Assembly (NCBI GenBank): GCA_025061835.1 | Contig: JANXAC010000002.1 | Location: forward strand, 1 to 37,184 | DNA: 37,184 nucleotides | Direction: 5' to 3' | Origin: Spirochaetota bacterium | GTDB lineage: Bacteria > Spirochaetota > Brevinematia > DTOW01 | Part shown: positions 31,453 to 36,685 of the stretch, piece after piece | Layout of the letters: every line of letters starts with the position of its first letter | How positions within the stretch are numbered: the first letter of the stretch is position 1 | Notes under the pieces: generated by a model | Told to the model about the DNA's origin: nothing | Seen by the model: only the letters and a program-made list of their open reading frames with translations | The model's database searches: none | Translations under genes and position numbers: made by a program

Positions 31453-32808
31453 TTAATACCCTCTTGGAGCGTAGACTGCGTATCCGTAAGGTGCCGCCCA
31501 AAGGTCAGCATACCCACTTCCGTCAGTCCACTTGTTATTCGGTCTTGCGGTATCCTTACCATCCCAAGCATAGACATTAAGTTCAGTGTTAGCCCACTTT
31601 GTCCTAACTCTAGCACCTTTCCATTGAACACCATTATCGTTTATTACTATCACAAGTCCTGGGTTAGAACCATACCCATTTCTCTGTGCTATGTATAGGT
31701 CATTATCTGCATATAAGATGGTTGTTGAACCACCCGCTAGCCTCCAATTAACCCATAATAATTGTTGTATTCCCCTTGCTGTTCCTCTCCTCGCAAGTCC
31801 ATAATCATAGTAATCCTTCCACCACACTGTCGGATCTCCTTCAGCAGTAAGTATATATGCATAAGCCATCATCTTATTCTGTGTTATCGGATCAGTATCG
31901 TGGTTCCCAACAAACGTAACAGCCTTAGTAGGTCTAATACCTACAAGTCCAGCAAACTGTAATCCTCTCATATCATAGTATCCATTACCTAATGCCATAT
32001 CTCGCAAAACATACAGTAATGAAAAGTCAAAAGTCTTTACACCTGCTCTGTTAGCAGTATCAACCCACCAAGCAAGTGTATCTCTATTACCATCCCAGTA
32101 TTCTCCTACTATGAATGGTTGTCCAGTGTTGTCATAAACATACGCCGCAACCCAAGGAGCAAATCCCTTCGTGTAGTCAAGCCTCCAGAAGTCAAACCCA
32201 GCATTAGCACTGTTCTTAAGCCAATTAAGCCATGCTATTATGTTTGTCTGGACATAAACTTTGTCATGGCATACATCAGGATAACCACCGAAAACACCGC
32301 TATCACTTGCGTGTATGTCATTAGGATGGAAGTCCCAATAACTAGCTCTAAACCTACCACTGGCAACCTTTGAGAAGTCAGTCCAAGTGTTGCCACCGGT
32401 GAAAGGATTGTATTGAGAATCTCCACCGGCTCTATGGTTTAAAACGATGTCCGCCATCGCCCTCATACCATAGGATTTTATGCTTGATATTAAACTCCTC
32501 AGTTGCGATTGAGTTCCGAACCTTGTTGCTGTTGTGCCTTTCTGGTTATACTGACCTACATCATAGTAATCGTAGGGATCGTATCCCATGGAATATCCAC
32601 CATTCATAGCCTTTGAAGGAGGAGGTAGGTAAATGACTTCAAGTTTATCACTAGCAAGCTCAGCAACTTTACCTTGGACAGTTGTATACCATCCATTTGG
32701 CACATCCCAGTAGAACGCCTGGAATACTCTCCAAGCACCAGCATCCTCAACTGCTACGAAGGATGCTAACACAACCAAGGTTAACCCCACTAACGCTAAT
32801 AGCCTCAT
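31453..32808 (-). CDS. Secreted alpha-amylase, GH13 (archaeal-type, GH13_7-like)
   Basis: The 451-residue protein has a signal peptide (about 1-25) and closely tracks thermococcal alpha-amylases: A-F-Y-W-D-V-P, G-G-Y-S-M-G-Y-D-P-Y-D, Q-K-G-T...T-R-F-G, W-T-D-F-S-K-V-A-S-G, and F-G-G-Y-P-D-V-C-H-D. The GH13 conserved regions give D120-IVLNH-125, nucleophile Asp211 (W-R-L-D-Y-T-K-G), acid/base Glu236 (V-G-E-Y-W-D) and Asp304 (G-N-H-D-T-D). A C-terminal beta domain rich in W, G and Y completes it. It should cut starch outside the cytoplasm. Four 60-base lines I counted gave 106 of 240 G+C, above the roughly one third of neighbours; with its archaeal likeness this suggests transfer, though W/G/A-rich composition contributes. 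GAGAGG precedes the ATG. Confidence 0.93.
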   Translation of the reverse strand: MRLLALVGLTLVVLASFVAVEDAGAWRVFQAFYWDVPNGWYTTVQGKVAELASDKLEVIYLPPPSKAMNGGYSMGYDPYDYYDVGQYNQKGTTATRFGTQSQLRSLISSIKSYGMRAMADIVLNHRAGGDSQYNPFTGGNTWTDFSKVASGRFRASYWDFHPNDIHASDSGVFGGYPDVCHDKVYVQTNIIAWLNWLKNSANAGFDFWRLDYTKGFAPWVAAYVYDNTGQPFIVGEYWDGNRDTLAWWVDTANRAGVKTFDFSLLYVLRDMALGNGYYDMRGLQFAGLVGIRPTKAVTFVGNHDTDPITQNKMMAYAYILTAEGDPTVWWKDYYDYGLARRGTARGIQQLLWVNWRLAGGSTTILYADNDLYIAQRNGYGSNPGLVIVINDNGVQWKGARVRTKWANTELNVYAWDGKDTARPNNKWTDGSGYADLWAAPYGYAVYAPRGY

Positions 32809-33164: not shown

Positions 33165-33237
33165 GCGGGAATAGCTCAGTAGGTAGAGCATCGGCTTCCC
33201 AAGCCGAGGGTCGCGGGTTCAAGTCCCGTTTCCCGCT
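33165..33237 (+). tRNA. tRNA-Gly (anticodon CCC)
   Basis: The cloverleaf is complete: acceptor stem GCGGGAA/TTCCCGC (33165-33171 and 33230-33236), discriminator T33237, D-arm with AGCTCAGTAGGTAGAGC, anticodon stem TCGGC/GCCGA around the loop TTCCCAA (anticodon CCC, reading GGG), and T-arm GCGGG-TTCAAGT-CCCGT with one G-T pair. The terminal CCA is not encoded. The ribosome-binding site of the ferredoxin gene begins 2-3 bases after the discriminator base, so the tRNA and mRNA must be cut from one transcript. Confidence 0.97.
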
Positions 33238-33249
33238 TAGGAGGTTTCT

Positions 33250-33510
33250 ATGCCAAGAGTAATTACCGAAGCCTGCATAGGTGTTAAAGATGCTTCTTGC
33301 GTTCAGGTATGCCCAGTTGACTGCATACATCCAAGACCAGACGAAGCAGACTACGCTAATGTGGATCATCTGTACATAAACCCTGATGATTGTATAGATT
33401 GCGGCGCTTGCGAACCAGCATGTCCCGTTAGTGCTATCTTCCCCCTTGAAGATGTTCCAGACAATATGAAATCATATATAGAAAAAAACGCAAGTTATTA
33501 CAAGAAATAG
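33250..33510 (+). CDS. 7Fe ferredoxin ([3Fe-4S][4Fe-4S])
   Basis: The 86-residue protein matches Thermus-type 7Fe ferredoxins. The first half, C-I-G-V-K-D-A-S-C-V-Q-V-C-P-V-D-C (9-25), lacks the second cysteine of the usual motif (Val12 is there), so Cys9, Cys17 and Cys58 should hold a [3Fe-4S] cluster. Cys21, Cys48, Cys51 and Cys54 (C-I-D-C-G-A-C) hold a [4Fe-4S] cluster. It is a low-potential electron carrier and a plausible partner of the pyruvate:ferredoxin oxidoreductase 9 kb away. AGGAGG directly abuts the tRNA-Gly 3' end, giving a tRNA-mRNA transcript. A hairpin follows 7 bases after the stop. Confidence 0.95.
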   Translation: MPRVITEACIGVKDASCVQVCPVDCIHPRPDEADYANVDHLYINPDDCIDCGACEPACPVSAIFPLEDVPDNMKSYIEKNASYYKK

Positions 33511-33516
33511 ATCTCT

Positions 33517-33536
33517 AGGGGGACCTTTGTCTCCCT
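33517..33536. terminator. Hairpin between ferredoxin and pseudopilin genes
   Basis: AGGGGGAC pairs with GTCTCCCT (8 bp including one G-T) around a CTTT loop, 6 bases after the ferredoxin stop and overlapping the stop codon of the convergent pseudopilin gene. It is the third AGGGGGA hairpin at a convergent junction and can serve both strands. Confidence 0.6.
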
Positions 33537-33909
33537 AAAAATCATAAATAGAAGTAGAAACGCTAAACTTACTGTCGCTGTTGGTTGTAAATATAATTAC
33601 ATTATACATTCTAGGGTTAGTGGAATAAATAGTTGTCACTTCTACCTCTACGAAAGTTCCACTAATATTGGTATTGAATTTCGCTTTGTCGTAAAATATA
33701 GTATTTTCTAATAGTATCTTGTTGTATACATGTTTTACGAGGTTTATGTTTTCATAAATGACTTTTGACTTACTGGTTAGCGATACAACATACCTGTAAG
33801 TTTCAACCACAGAGAATATCATGATAGAAACTACAAGTATTGCTACAATAACCTCTATTACTGAAAAACCTTTGTTATCTTTTGCTAGTTTTGTAAATTT
33901 CTTCAACAT
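33535..33909 (-). CDS. Type IV pilin-like (pseudopilin) protein
   Basis: The 124-residue protein has a prepilin peptidase site and N-terminal helix, D-N-K-G-F-S-V-I-E-V-I-V-A-I-L-V-V-S-I-M: cleavage would fall after Gly14, with Phe+1 and the conserved Glu+5. The short leader is basic (M-L-K-K-F-T-K-L-A-K). The rest is a small beta-rich globular domain (V-E-V-E-V-T-T-I-Y, M-Y-N-V-I-I-F-T-T). This suits a minor pilin or type II secretion pseudopilin; no other pilus gene is near. Its start lies inside the upstream glycosyltransferase gene (35-base overlap), so it is probably translated by coupling. Confidence 0.75.
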   Translation of the reverse strand: MLKKFTKLAKDNKGFSVIEVIVAILVVSIMIFSVVETYRYVVSLTSKSKVIYENINLVKHVYNKILLENTIFYDKAKFNTNISGTFVEVEVTTIYSTNPRMYNVIIFTTNSDSKFSVSTSIYDF

Positions 33910-35383
33910 AGGTTTTAGCCGATTCAGACCAATAAAATTCGGATCTCATGGCTGTATCTACTATCTTTCTCCATCGTTTGGGGTTTTTGTAATAAATATC
34001 AACTGCCTCCAAAATCTTGTCCCTAAAGCTTTGGGGTGAGTATTCGTAAAACTTAAATCCATTTATCTTATCTCTTACTATATCATTTAGAATACCAACA
34101 CCCCTAACGAGAGGTACCGTTCCAAAAAGCATTGAAACCATGTGTAGTATAGAACTAGGTTCCACCATAGATGGTATCAATACAATGTCAGATGCGATTA
34201 GGTATTCTATTATCTCATCTTCTTGAACATTTTTTACCCAGTATACTTTTGATGGATTTGACTTTGCAATTTCATCTATAGCAACTTCTCTAAAATCATC
34301 TCCTTTGCCTATTAGTATTAGTGATATTTTGTTTTTAGAGATAAGATCGCTAAGAACTTCATAAATTAATGATATTCCTGTTTTCTCTGTAAATTTACCT
34401 ACAAAGAGTAGTAATATACTACTCTCGTCAAATTTAATTCTTTTACATACTAGCGACTTAATCTTATATTTGTTGCCTATGTTATCTTTGGTGTAATTCA
34501 AACCTTTCTTTGATAGAATAGGATTATCTTTTGGTGTGAATGAAGAATTAACTCCAGGTATTACGTACTTTATCTTGTTTTCAATAACCTTTTGGTTTAT
34601 GAGCCCCTCAAGACCGTTGCCGAACTCTTCTCGCTTGATCTCCTCAATGTAAGAAGCACTGCAGAAAACAGTAGCATCACTAAAGACGATAGCACCTTTT
34701 ACTATGTTTACCTTGTTGTAGAACTCTAGATACTCGTAGCTGTAGTATCTCCAATCTATACCTAAAATTGGATACTGTTCGGGTGTAAATATTGGCATAT
34801 CGTCAAGTGAAGGTAATGTAAATATTACCTTTGACTTATTAATAAAATTATCATACTTATACAATGTTTTTGCGTATATTGATGTTATACTAGCCCACTT
34901 ACCTATCACATGTATGACATCTGGTCTGAATGGAATTGTCTTAAGCGACTCAAGAGCAGATTTGGAGAAGATTGAAAATCTTTGAAGGTTATCAGGATAG
35001 AAGAAACCATTACTAGGATCCACTGTAAAGCCTTCTCTATTAGATAGAAGTGGTTCGTTTACAAAGATAAAATTCATTTTGGAACATTCGTGGCTTCTTA
35101 TTTCTATCTCTTTCTCTTCTCTTCCATCTCTTTCAGCTACAGTTATTTTTTCAGAGGAGATATACTTGAAATCACGAAAATTATTACTACTTTCGATACT
35201 CTTATGCCATGGAAACACTAGAATAACATTATGTCCCAAATCTCTCAGATTTCTGGATAAATCGCATACAAAGAAATTTTCAAAATTTAAAAAGTCTATC
35301 CCCCTTGTGAAAAAATGGTCTATGATATCTGAAACTATAGCAATATTAAGGGGTTTTATTTCTTTCTGCTTCTTTATTATCAT
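33875..35383 (-). CDS. Divergent glycogen/starch synthase-like glycosyltransferase (GT5-like, GT-B fold)
   Basis: The 502-residue protein has a two-Rossmann GT-B layout resembling bacterial GlgA: an N-terminal L-N-I-A-I-V-S-D-I start, L-R-D-L-G-H-N-V-I-L-V-F-P, P-D-V-I-H-V-I-G-K-W-A, then G-V-N-S-S-F-T-P-K-D, L-F-V-G-K-F-T-E-K-T-G and P-S-M-V-E-P-S-S-I-L-H-M-V-S-M-L-F-G-T-V-P-L-V-R-G-V-G. The last corresponds to GlgA 'PSrfEPCGL.Q..am.YG..PvVr.tGG'. The ADP-glucose-binding K-T-G-G-L loop is replaced (F-T-R-G-I-D) and the 'T-I-H-N' histidine is not seen, so donor and product are uncertain. GGAGG precedes the ATG. It sits between ompA-like and pseudopilin genes. Confidence 0.65.
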   Translation of the reverse strand: MIIKKQKEIKPLNIAIVSDIIDHFFTRGIDFLNFENFFVCDLSRNLRDLGHNVILVFPWHKSIESSNNFRDFKYISSEKITVAERDGREEKEIEIRSHECSKMNFIFVNEPLLSNREGFTVDPSNGFFYPDNLQRFSIFSKSALESLKTIPFRPDVIHVIGKWASITSIYAKTLYKYDNFINKSKVIFTLPSLDDMPIFTPEQYPILGIDWRYYSYEYLEFYNKVNIVKGAIVFSDATVFCSASYIEEIKREEFGNGLEGLINQKVIENKIKYVIPGVNSSFTPKDNPILSKKGLNYTKDNIGNKYKIKSLVCKRIKFDESSILLLFVGKFTEKTGISLIYEVLSDLISKNKISLILIGKGDDFREVAIDEIAKSNPSKVYWVKNVQEDEIIEYLIASDIVLIPSMVEPSSILHMVSMLFGTVPLVRGVGILNDIVRDKINGFKFYEYSPQSFRDKILEAVDIYYKNPKRWRKIVDTAMRSEFYWSESAKTYVEEIYKTSKR

Positions 35384-35418
35384 AAATCCTCCTACTTATG
35401 ATTAATTATAAACTTAAT

Positions 35419-36615
35419 TTATTTTCCCCATATTAGTTTTATCTCAACTCTACGGTTTTTAGCTCTATTCTCATCACTTGTGTTAGGAACTACTGGTCTG
35501 TCAGGACCATAACCTCTGTAAGACACTTTGTCTGGTTTTATACCGCTCTGAATTAAAACATTAGCGACTACCTTAGACCTGTTATCCGAAAGAGTCAAAT
35601 TGAATTCTCTTGATCCAACATCATCAGTATGCCCTTCTACAACGATATCAACCTCATCGTACTTCTTGAGGATATCTGCTAATTTGATCAACATTTCCCT
35701 ATAGCTAGGTTTTATGTTATAACTTCCTGTATCAAAGAGTATGTCTGATATACTAACTTTTATTTCGTTATCTTCAGGAGGTGAAACAGAAACATCAGAA
35801 CTCAGTTTTTCAATCTCTCTAGCGAGTTTGTATTGTTTTGCTACATCTACAGGGATCACCTCCATAACACCTACAGATGTTCCTTGATGTCTTGTTGAAC
35901 TATATGGATAGCCAGACAGGTAGGTTTTAGTTATGTCAAATATCTCTCTATACTCAGAAAATATGCCATTTTGAATATCCCAACTGTATTTTGTTGAAGA
36001 ACTGAACTTTATATCTTTTATATACTTACCCCCAGGATTATTGAAGAAGAAGTTATACTCTGCGTTGAATATCACTAAATTCCTACCCCCCTTCATAACA
36101 ATATCATCAACACTATAATTAACAACATTTCTAACCCTAACTATCTCATCCTTCTCGGTTATTATATCCTCACCTAGCGCTTGCCACTTGTAACCTCTGG
36201 CTACTGGAGACCTACCAAAACTAGGTATTCCCCTTCTAGGAGGAAGGTAACTATCAGCTAAGACTTTCATATTCCCATACCTATCTATCATGAAATCAAC
36301 CTCATCAACCCTAGATAGTTTATATTCAACATCTACATTCTGCTTTCTTGTCATATAGTAGAACATATACTTCACGGTTACAAAGTTTTCACCGTCCTGT
36401 ATAGAATATCTATATGGTTGCATAGTTATTTTTGACATAGCCTCTACAGTTCTAAAAAACAACCCATCTATATAAATATCTTGTTTTGTATATACCTTTA
36501 GCCTATAGATGTTGTTCGTTGAAAACTTATAGTCCAAAGTAAAAGATGACGAAATATAGGGTATAAAAAATATAGTCAATAACGTTATAACAAATACAAC
36601 TACAAAAGATTTCAT
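35419..36615 (-). CDS. OmpA-family outer-membrane/peptidoglycan-binding protein
   Basis: The 398-residue protein has a signal peptide (about 1-24), a long beta-rich N-terminal domain (about 25-265) of unknown fold and a C-terminal OmpA/MotB domain (about 287-398). The latter contains I-L-F-D-T-G-S-Y-N-I-K-P, V-E-G-H-T-D-D-V-G, N-L-T-L-S-D-N-R-S-K-V-V and the final N-R-R-V-E-I, with the Asp and Arg that bind diaminopimelate in peptidoglycan. It probably links outer membrane and cell wall. It is first in an operon with the glycosyltransferase (35-base gap) and pseudopilin. No ribosome-binding site precedes the ATG, and the predicted -10 is only 7 bases away. Confidence 0.88.
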   Translation of the reverse strand: MKSFVVVFVITLLTIFFIPYISSSFTLDYKFSTNNIYRLKVYTKQDIYIDGLFFRTVEAMSKITMQPYRYSIQDGENFVTVKYMFYYMTRKQNVDVEYKLSRVDEVDFMIDRYGNMKVLADSYLPPRRGIPSFGRSPVARGYKWQALGEDIITEKDEIVRVRNVVNYSVDDIVMKGGRNLVIFNAEYNFFFNNPGGKYIKDIKFSSSTKYSWDIQNGIFSEYREIFDITKTYLSGYPYSSTRHQGTSVGVMEVIPVDVAKQYKLAREIEKLSSDVSVSPPEDNEIKVSISDILFDTGSYNIKPSYREMLIKLADILKKYDEVDIVVEGHTDDVGSREFNLTLSDNRSKVVANVLIQSGIKPDKVSYRGYGPDRPVVPNTSDENRAKNRRVEIKLIWGK

Positions 36616-36622
36616 ATCTAAA

Positions 36623-36685
36623 AGTATAGATAGAAATTAATAAGTGTTTCAAGTTAATTAATATGGGTCAATAAAGTCTAAAGTT
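36623..36685 (-). promoter_or_regulatory. ompA-operon promoter with upstream AACTTTAGAC box
   Basis: Read on the minus strand, the box AACTTTAGACTTTATTG (36685-36669) is followed after 16 bases by TTGAAA (36652-36647) and, after 18 bases, by TATACT (36628-36623). Only 7 bases separate the -10 from the ATG, predicting a leaderless transcript. The likeness to the copy at 33065-33103 covers 39 bases (36707-36669) with 4 differences. Confidence 0.6.

Follow-up and report, generated by a model that had tools for sequence, protein, structure and literature searches.

What is a relative of glycogen synthase doing between a gene for an OmpA-like envelope protein and a gene for a pseudopilin? The question is raised by a 37,184-nucleotide stretch of a Spirochaetota genome (assembly GCA_025061835.1, contig JANXAC010000002.1; hereafter the window). 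On its minus strand, an OmpA-like gene (35419–36615, 398 amino acids), a gene for a GlgA-like protein of glycosyltransferase family 5 (GT5; 33875–35383, 502 amino acids) and a gene for a prepilin-like minor pseudopilin (33535–33909, 124 amino acids) follow one another. The GT5-like protein has lost donor-site residues of GlgA throughout the bacterial family to which the window belongs. We propose, as an even call, that a non-catalytic pseudo-GlgA was repurposed in the ancestor of this family and is co-expressed with the pseudopilin and an OmpA-like paralogue.

A three-gene unit conserved within one family

Our collection held 18 genomes of the class, 5 of which (G000, the genome of the window, to G004) make up the window's family, with two genera. 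The OmpA-like and GT5-like genes were adjacent in all five, and the full trio was found in each of the four family genomes with long enough contigs; the G002 contig stops within the GT5-like gene, at residue 306, and its GT5 sequence is excluded from the four-row counts given below. An initial annotation, made from the sequence alone, had described the three genes as tightly linked, and this was exact, with open reading frames (ORFs) confirmed where it had placed them: 35 bases separate the OmpA-like and GT5-like genes, while the pseudopilin gene starts inside the GT5-like gene, with an overlap of 35 bases. Across four family loci, the gaps were 35 (window), 30, 36 and 52 bases and the overlaps 35 (window), 38, 35 and 44 bases. 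In the stretches compared, the only flanking genes common to family loci were a ferredoxin-like gene (G000, G003 and G001) and a repetitive-looking ORF at the loci of G001 and G004. With hardly any flanking genes in common, the trio has survived the rearrangement of its surroundings. For rough comparison, around another pilin G000 and G003 had nothing in common but the pilin itself, and G000 and G001 had two more genes in common. The initial annotation had proposed to look for the same set in related genomes; gene order was kept within the family, but the trio was not seen outside it.

A promoter-like sequence, TTGAAA-N18-TATACT (36623–36652, minus strand), lies 7 bases ahead of the OmpA-like ATG, giving a leaderless-type start. 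At the five family loci the −10 element was TATACT in four and CATACT in one, with TTGAAA or TTGATA about 18 bases before it in all five and the ATG a few bases after. A promoter scan found 17 promoter-like sites where shuffled sequence would give 18.4, no excess over chance, so the site counts only through its conservation in all five. By eye, the GT5-like start was preceded by a G-rich ribosome-binding-type site in five of five genomes (aggagg in the window), and no clear ribosome-binding site was seen at the pilin ATG within the GT5-like gene in four of four. A pilin start that overlaps the GT5-like gene and lacks such a site fits translational coupling. Conserved and confined to the family, with one promoter-like site, the trio forms a unit that matches no system known to us, much as the initial annotation had suspected of a small envelope system. 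Pfam matches to the three products were OmpA (2e-21), Glyco_transf_5 (3e-36) and N_methyl (5.3e-05).

The OmpA-like protein has an N-terminal hydrophobic, signal-like stretch (by eye), a domain of about 240 residues without a Pfam match and a C-terminal OmpA domain (PF00691, 76.6 bits); a single-sequence model (predicted local distance difference test, pLDDT, 43.7) was unusable for the fold of the N-terminal domain. Its relatives are spread through the phylum, with full-length relatives in the class. The window protein shares its length and C-terminal domain with the phylum-wide OmpA-like proteins of about 400 amino acids, but it is a second copy, strongly diverged and confined to the family. 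The tree gives the family two copies, joined with support of 96/94: the window copy, present in five genomes, has a stem of 1.36, and the other, from four genomes, a stem of 0.50. The window protein is a family-specific paralogue; a G023 match is missing from this tree through a length filter. Another genus of the class has two tandem OmpA-like copies (L055 7028–9696, L086, L087 and L092), by the tree an independent duplication.

The window pilin carries the prepilin peptidase/methylation motif (PF07963, 23.1 bits, cut-off 21.2), and a type II secretion system (T2SS)-type ATPase and a secretin were present in all five family genomes. With the minor pseudopilins of T2SS and type IV pili (PilV, GspI and ComGE type) it shares the N-terminal motif, a short product and this genomic company; it differs in being encoded apart from other T2SS parts, behind the GlgA relative. 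Class relatives with pilins have a compact T2SS-like operon that encodes pilins together with a PilM/PilN-like protein and other components, and the pilins of the family are scattered (L046, L047, L103 and L104). Among the class pilins, pilin 2 was the best and longest match to the window pilin by hhalign, though a weak one (probability 91.6 over 95 columns); the others gave 83.6 over 31 columns and 88.0 over 42.

A GlgA relative without its donor site

The best solved relatives of the GT5-like protein are the glycogen and starch synthases of E. coli and other organisms, and Pfam and NCBIfam scans returned Glyco_transf_5 plus Glycos_transf_1. An AlphaFold2 model (pLDDT 70.5, predicted template modelling score 0.74), built from the window protein and four relatives, gave query-normalised Foldseek template modelling scores of 0.82 to 6gne_A and 0.78 to 2qzs and VIA Z-scores of 33.4 and 32.1, respectively; L025 was excluded from the structure alignment. 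The predicted fold is that of GlgA, a GT-B fold with a GT5 N-terminal domain. The protein scored 262.5 bits against an NCBIfam glgA cut-off of 328.45, which none of the five family genomes passed. These genomes held no second glgA, their remaining matches being only partial and GT4-like, and the GT5-like protein is the sole GlgA relative in them; the canonical glgA for which the initial annotation proposed a search was not found there.

Bacterial GlgA (GT5; E. coli 2qzs and A. tumefaciens 1rzu) shares with the window protein a two-domain GT-B fold over nearly the full length, Glyco_transf_5 and Glu377. Unlike it, the window protein lacks K-x-G-G-L, His161-Asn162, Asn246, Arg300, Lys305 and the C-terminal T-G-G-L, falls below the NCBIfam cut-off and has no GlgC or canonical GlgB partner. 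We compared active sites in a 42-row alignment, using E. coli GlgA numbering and 13 class relatives as the control; all 13 retain K, G-G, D-W, H-N, R, K, E and the C-terminal G-G. According to excerpts of PMC6210743 (its Table 2 for the phosphate contacts) and PMC6086201, Arg300 and Lys305 (332 and 337 in starch synthase IV) contact phosphate, and the donor site includes the K-x-G-G-L loop and the His-Asn motif; PMC7137382 gives an overlapping set of contact residues. The donor loop was present in 13 of 13 class rows and in none of the five family rows. His161-Asn162 was replaced by Pro or Ser followed by Ser in all five, including the incomplete G002 (Pro-Ser in the window; codons 191–192, 34808–34813, minus strand). 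In the four full orthologues, Arg300 was replaced by K/E/D/D, a position that varies among them, and Lys305 by T/T/T/S (Lys and Thr in the window; codons 330–335, 34379–34396, minus strand). D137 was Gly, N162 Ser, N246 Pro and L381 Ile in all four, S360 was I/I/I/L, and Y355 (Phe in the class) was V/F/I/C. The replacements were thus often invariant themselves, as at D137, N162, N246 and L381. Because the alignment is ungapped at R300/K305, H161/N162 and N246, these losses are independent of alignment choices, whereas the K-x-G-G-L region requires gaps.

Among the mappable ligand-contact residues of E. coli GlgA tabulated in PMC6210743, Glu377 (codon 408, 34160–34162, minus strand) was the only one kept in all four. 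The initial annotation had noted the missing K-T-G-G-L loop and N-terminal His motif, and the loss proves larger than it stated. Its claim that C-terminal GlgA-like motifs persist stands for fold residues and for Glu-Pro (Glu-Gln in one orthologue), and falls for Arg300, Lys305 and T-G-G-L, which have changed. A canonical active site on structural alignment, which it had named as counterevidence, did not emerge: the fold is GlgA-like and the site, by sequence alignment, non-canonical. VldE, a pseudo-glycosyltransferase with new chemistry, retains the Arg/Lys pair, as reported in excerpts of PMC3441724. Since the family protein has lost its donor-site residues while VldE keeps this pair, its use of a nucleotide-sugar is unlikely, and ordinary GlgA catalysis is very probably absent.

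Among 35 canonical rows (from which the partly degenerate G048 and G037a were excluded), 73 columns were near-invariant; 35 of these were kept in all four family rows and 24 were lost in all four, a pattern that is not chance. Across these rows 161 of 502 positions were invariant, and 72 of the 161 deviate from the canonical majority. Codons 424–446 (PLVRGVGILNDIVRDKINGFKFY; 34046–34114, minus strand), at the former donor loop, were invariant at 22 of 23 positions in the four full orthologues and form a candidate new functional surface. The gene was open in all five family genomes, with one copy truncated by the end of its contig. In each of the six GT5 pairs, differences at third codon positions were 1.4–2 times as frequent as those at first positions (0.27/0.18/0.54 at positions 1/2/3 for G000 against G003); we give position-wise differences and no ratio of nonsynonymous to synonymous divergence, as synonymous divergence was saturated or nearly so in almost all pairs. 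The GT5-like gene is under protein-level constraint.

Two further GT5 proteins, in G048 (L044 1539–2987) and G037 (L064), were also partly degenerate: one has K-x-G-N and R300K, and the other carries V, E and P in place of K15, G18 and H161; both genomes also hold a canonical GT5 copy.

Glycogen genes and the origin of the unit

The curated GlgC cut-off was passed by only 1 of 21 genomes searched, and we compared scores instead of passes. The best GlgC matches reached 49–59 bits in the five family genomes against 375–436 in all 13 class relatives, and the best GlgB matches 94–152 bits against 853–996 in 12 of the 13; the thirteenth, G015, has a C-terminal GlgB piece of 433 bits. By this comparison, GlgC and canonical GlgB are missing from all five family genomes. 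At a completeness of 82–96%, one absence might reflect missing sequence, which would scarcely explain the absence of both genes from all five. Glycogen phosphorylase was kept in all five despite the loss of the glycogen-making genes (1025–1160 bits, one copy cut by a contig end; 11544–14075, minus strand, in G000).

In the GT5 tree, from which L022 (nearly the same as L021) and L025 (which yielded no ORF under our rule) were left out, the five family rows formed one group (100/100) and 13 class GlgA proteins another (97/99). The free tree places the family, on a long stem of 1.37, apart from class GlgA; an approximately unbiased (AU) test did not reject family and class as a single clade (p 0.51), which does not prove it either. 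In an even sample of 392 phylum genomes from a larger group, the best non-family matches to the window protein were the 13 class GlgA proteins and one from G048. These 14 matches, at E 1e-55, were at most 34% identical to the query, and the GT5-like gene is therefore family-specific as far as searched. Most simply, it would be an inherited class GlgA that changed. A horizontal origin is not favoured, the best matches being class GlgA and the AU test giving the value above. The window copies of GT5 (1.37) and the OmpA-like protein (1.36) both have long stems in the family ancestor, which places most change in both before the family split.

Two GH13 enzymes (L049 1634–3877 and L062 2783–5014), which carry CBM48 and have starts resembling those of secreted proteins or lipoproteins, were weak matches to the GlgB model. 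A secreted-type alpha-amylase (window 31453–32808, minus strand; closest solved structures 3qgv and 1mwo, best NCBIfam model PRK09441.1-3) lies near tRNA-Gly in G000 only among the locus stretches compared and was possibly acquired. This tRNA-Gly (ccc; 33165–33237, plus strand; L026 5165–5237) is a convergent neighbour outside the unit. The ferredoxin-like gene (33250–33510, plus strand) is also convergent; it adjoins in three family genomes, not in G004, and is not counted in the unit.

Possible roles of the GlgA relative

We propose that three inherited genes were assembled into a family-specific operon. The glycogen-making pathway (GlgC, canonical GlgB and GlgA activity) would have been lost in the family ancestor, and the GlgA gene retained but stripped of donor and sugar binding, leaving a cytoplasmic pseudoenzyme whose former donor loop may have acquired a newly conserved surface. 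The pseudo-GlgA would be transcribed behind a duplicated, strongly diverged OmpA-like envelope protein, with probable translational coupling to a minor pseudopilin derived from an ancestral T2SS-like operon. Its role would be to bind other proteins in the cytoplasm, as an adaptor or scaffold that serves T2SS-like machinery or envelope assembly, with no sugar transfer. We hold this adaptor role more loosely than the repurposing itself, somewhat below an even chance. A bolder version, possible but on the unlikely side, is that GlgA was exapted after glycogen loss into a structural or sensory part of a T2SS-like machine, with the OmpA-like protein and pseudopilin as partners, as a bacterial counterpart of plant starch synthase 5 (SS5) with an unrelated job.

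Several observations weigh against the proposed repurposing. The AlphaFold model is only fair and is weakest at the former active-site loops, and Glu377 is retained though a dead enzyme need not keep it. The link to secretion comes through one pseudopilin with weak orthology to class pilin 2, and the overlap of reading frames could by itself hold the pilin in place without shared function. Another family pilin, pilin 3, lies directly behind an unrelated-looking RNase II/R-type gene in G000 and apparently also in G003 and G001. A PilM/PilN-like homologue was found in four of five family genomes (G000:C37, G001:C91, G002:C173 and G003:C1), extremely diverged at 77–94 bits against 691–823 in relatives with a profile of five class proteins, and no match was found in G004, a genome 82% complete. 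The idea that the pseudo-GlgA replaces PilM/GspL was rejected on the presence of this homologue.

Chief among the rivals is a historical accident, in which a T2SS-like operon broke, pilin 2 landed behind the GlgA relative and the genes kept unrelated jobs; the GlgA relative may be non-catalytic here too. The scattered pilins favour it, as does a GT5–pilin overlap that resists separation; pilin 3, behind its RNase gene, indicates that genes can stay neighbours without working together. Against it, the OmpA–GT5 junction is a gap and yet holds in five of five genomes while most flanks have changed, the promoter-like site is conserved, and two members, the GT5-like and OmpA-like genes, have parallel long stems. 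We regard such a frozen accident as a serious contender that is nevertheless rather unlikely. The remaining rivals turn on the state of the donor site. The initial annotation had suggested an altered enzyme that makes a different glycan or modifies a pilus or surface protein; an active glycosyltransferase with a remodelled site, making another glycan or glycosylating the pilin or OmpA-like protein, would suit the intact GT-B fold, Glu377, the constraint on the gene and its linkage to surface-type proteins. It is improbable when the donor-phosphate binders Arg300 and Lys305 are lost in four of four orthologues, with the Arg site variable (PMC6210743, PMC6086201), when His-Asn, Asn246 and the adenine-stacking Tyr/Phe355 are not conserved, and when VldE, even with new chemistry, still has the pair (PMC3441724). 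The same lost donor pocket, together with the lack of a direct link to the amylases, also makes very improbable a regulatory protein that responds to alpha-glucan or a nucleotide-sugar by adjusting how the family secretes its extracellular amylase and pullulanase-like enzymes. The two GH13/CBM48 enzymes described above, the kept phosphorylase and the T2SS parts would speak for it. Least credible is a decaying glgA remnant left after the loss of glycogen synthesis: it would account for the missing GlgC and canonical GlgB and the lost active site, but the gene is open in five of five genomes, with 161 of 502 positions invariant, 35 of 73 canonical columns kept and an excess of third-position differences. 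On column retention, invariance and codon-position pattern we rejected decay, which was already largely refuted.

Repurposed enzymes of glucan synthesis have precedents. Plant SS5 is described in excerpts of PMC10801857 as a nonenzymatic starch-synthase relative engaged in protein–protein contacts; the window protein is likewise a starch-synthase relative that appears to have no working donor site. It differs in being bacterial, from cells without glycogen-making genes and in an envelope-type operon, whereas SS5 acts in starch granule initiation in plastids, and we claim a functional likeness only. MKIP1, according to excerpts of PMC13172542, is a neofunctionalised branching enzyme that has lost its activity and is now a complex partner in splicing; it too is a glucan-synthesis enzyme turned to an unrelated job, but derives from a branching enzyme and serves chloroplast intron splicing. 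A literature search over titles and abstract openings returned no inactive bacterial GlgA and no link between GlgA and a pseudopilin, which is no proof of absence. The exapted pseudoenzyme is thus a known kind (SS5, MKIP1), and a bacterial case was not found in the literature searched.

The unit is apparently a clean natural case in which an active site has been lost across a bacterial family while fold and gene neighbourhood were kept, with 13 canonical class relatives as controls. The conserved segment 424–446 and the lost donor site make a new function directly testable. Annotations of 'glycogen synthase' in such genomes would be wrong: by its gene content, the family can break down alpha-glucan, without the classical GlgC–GlgA–GlgB route to make it.

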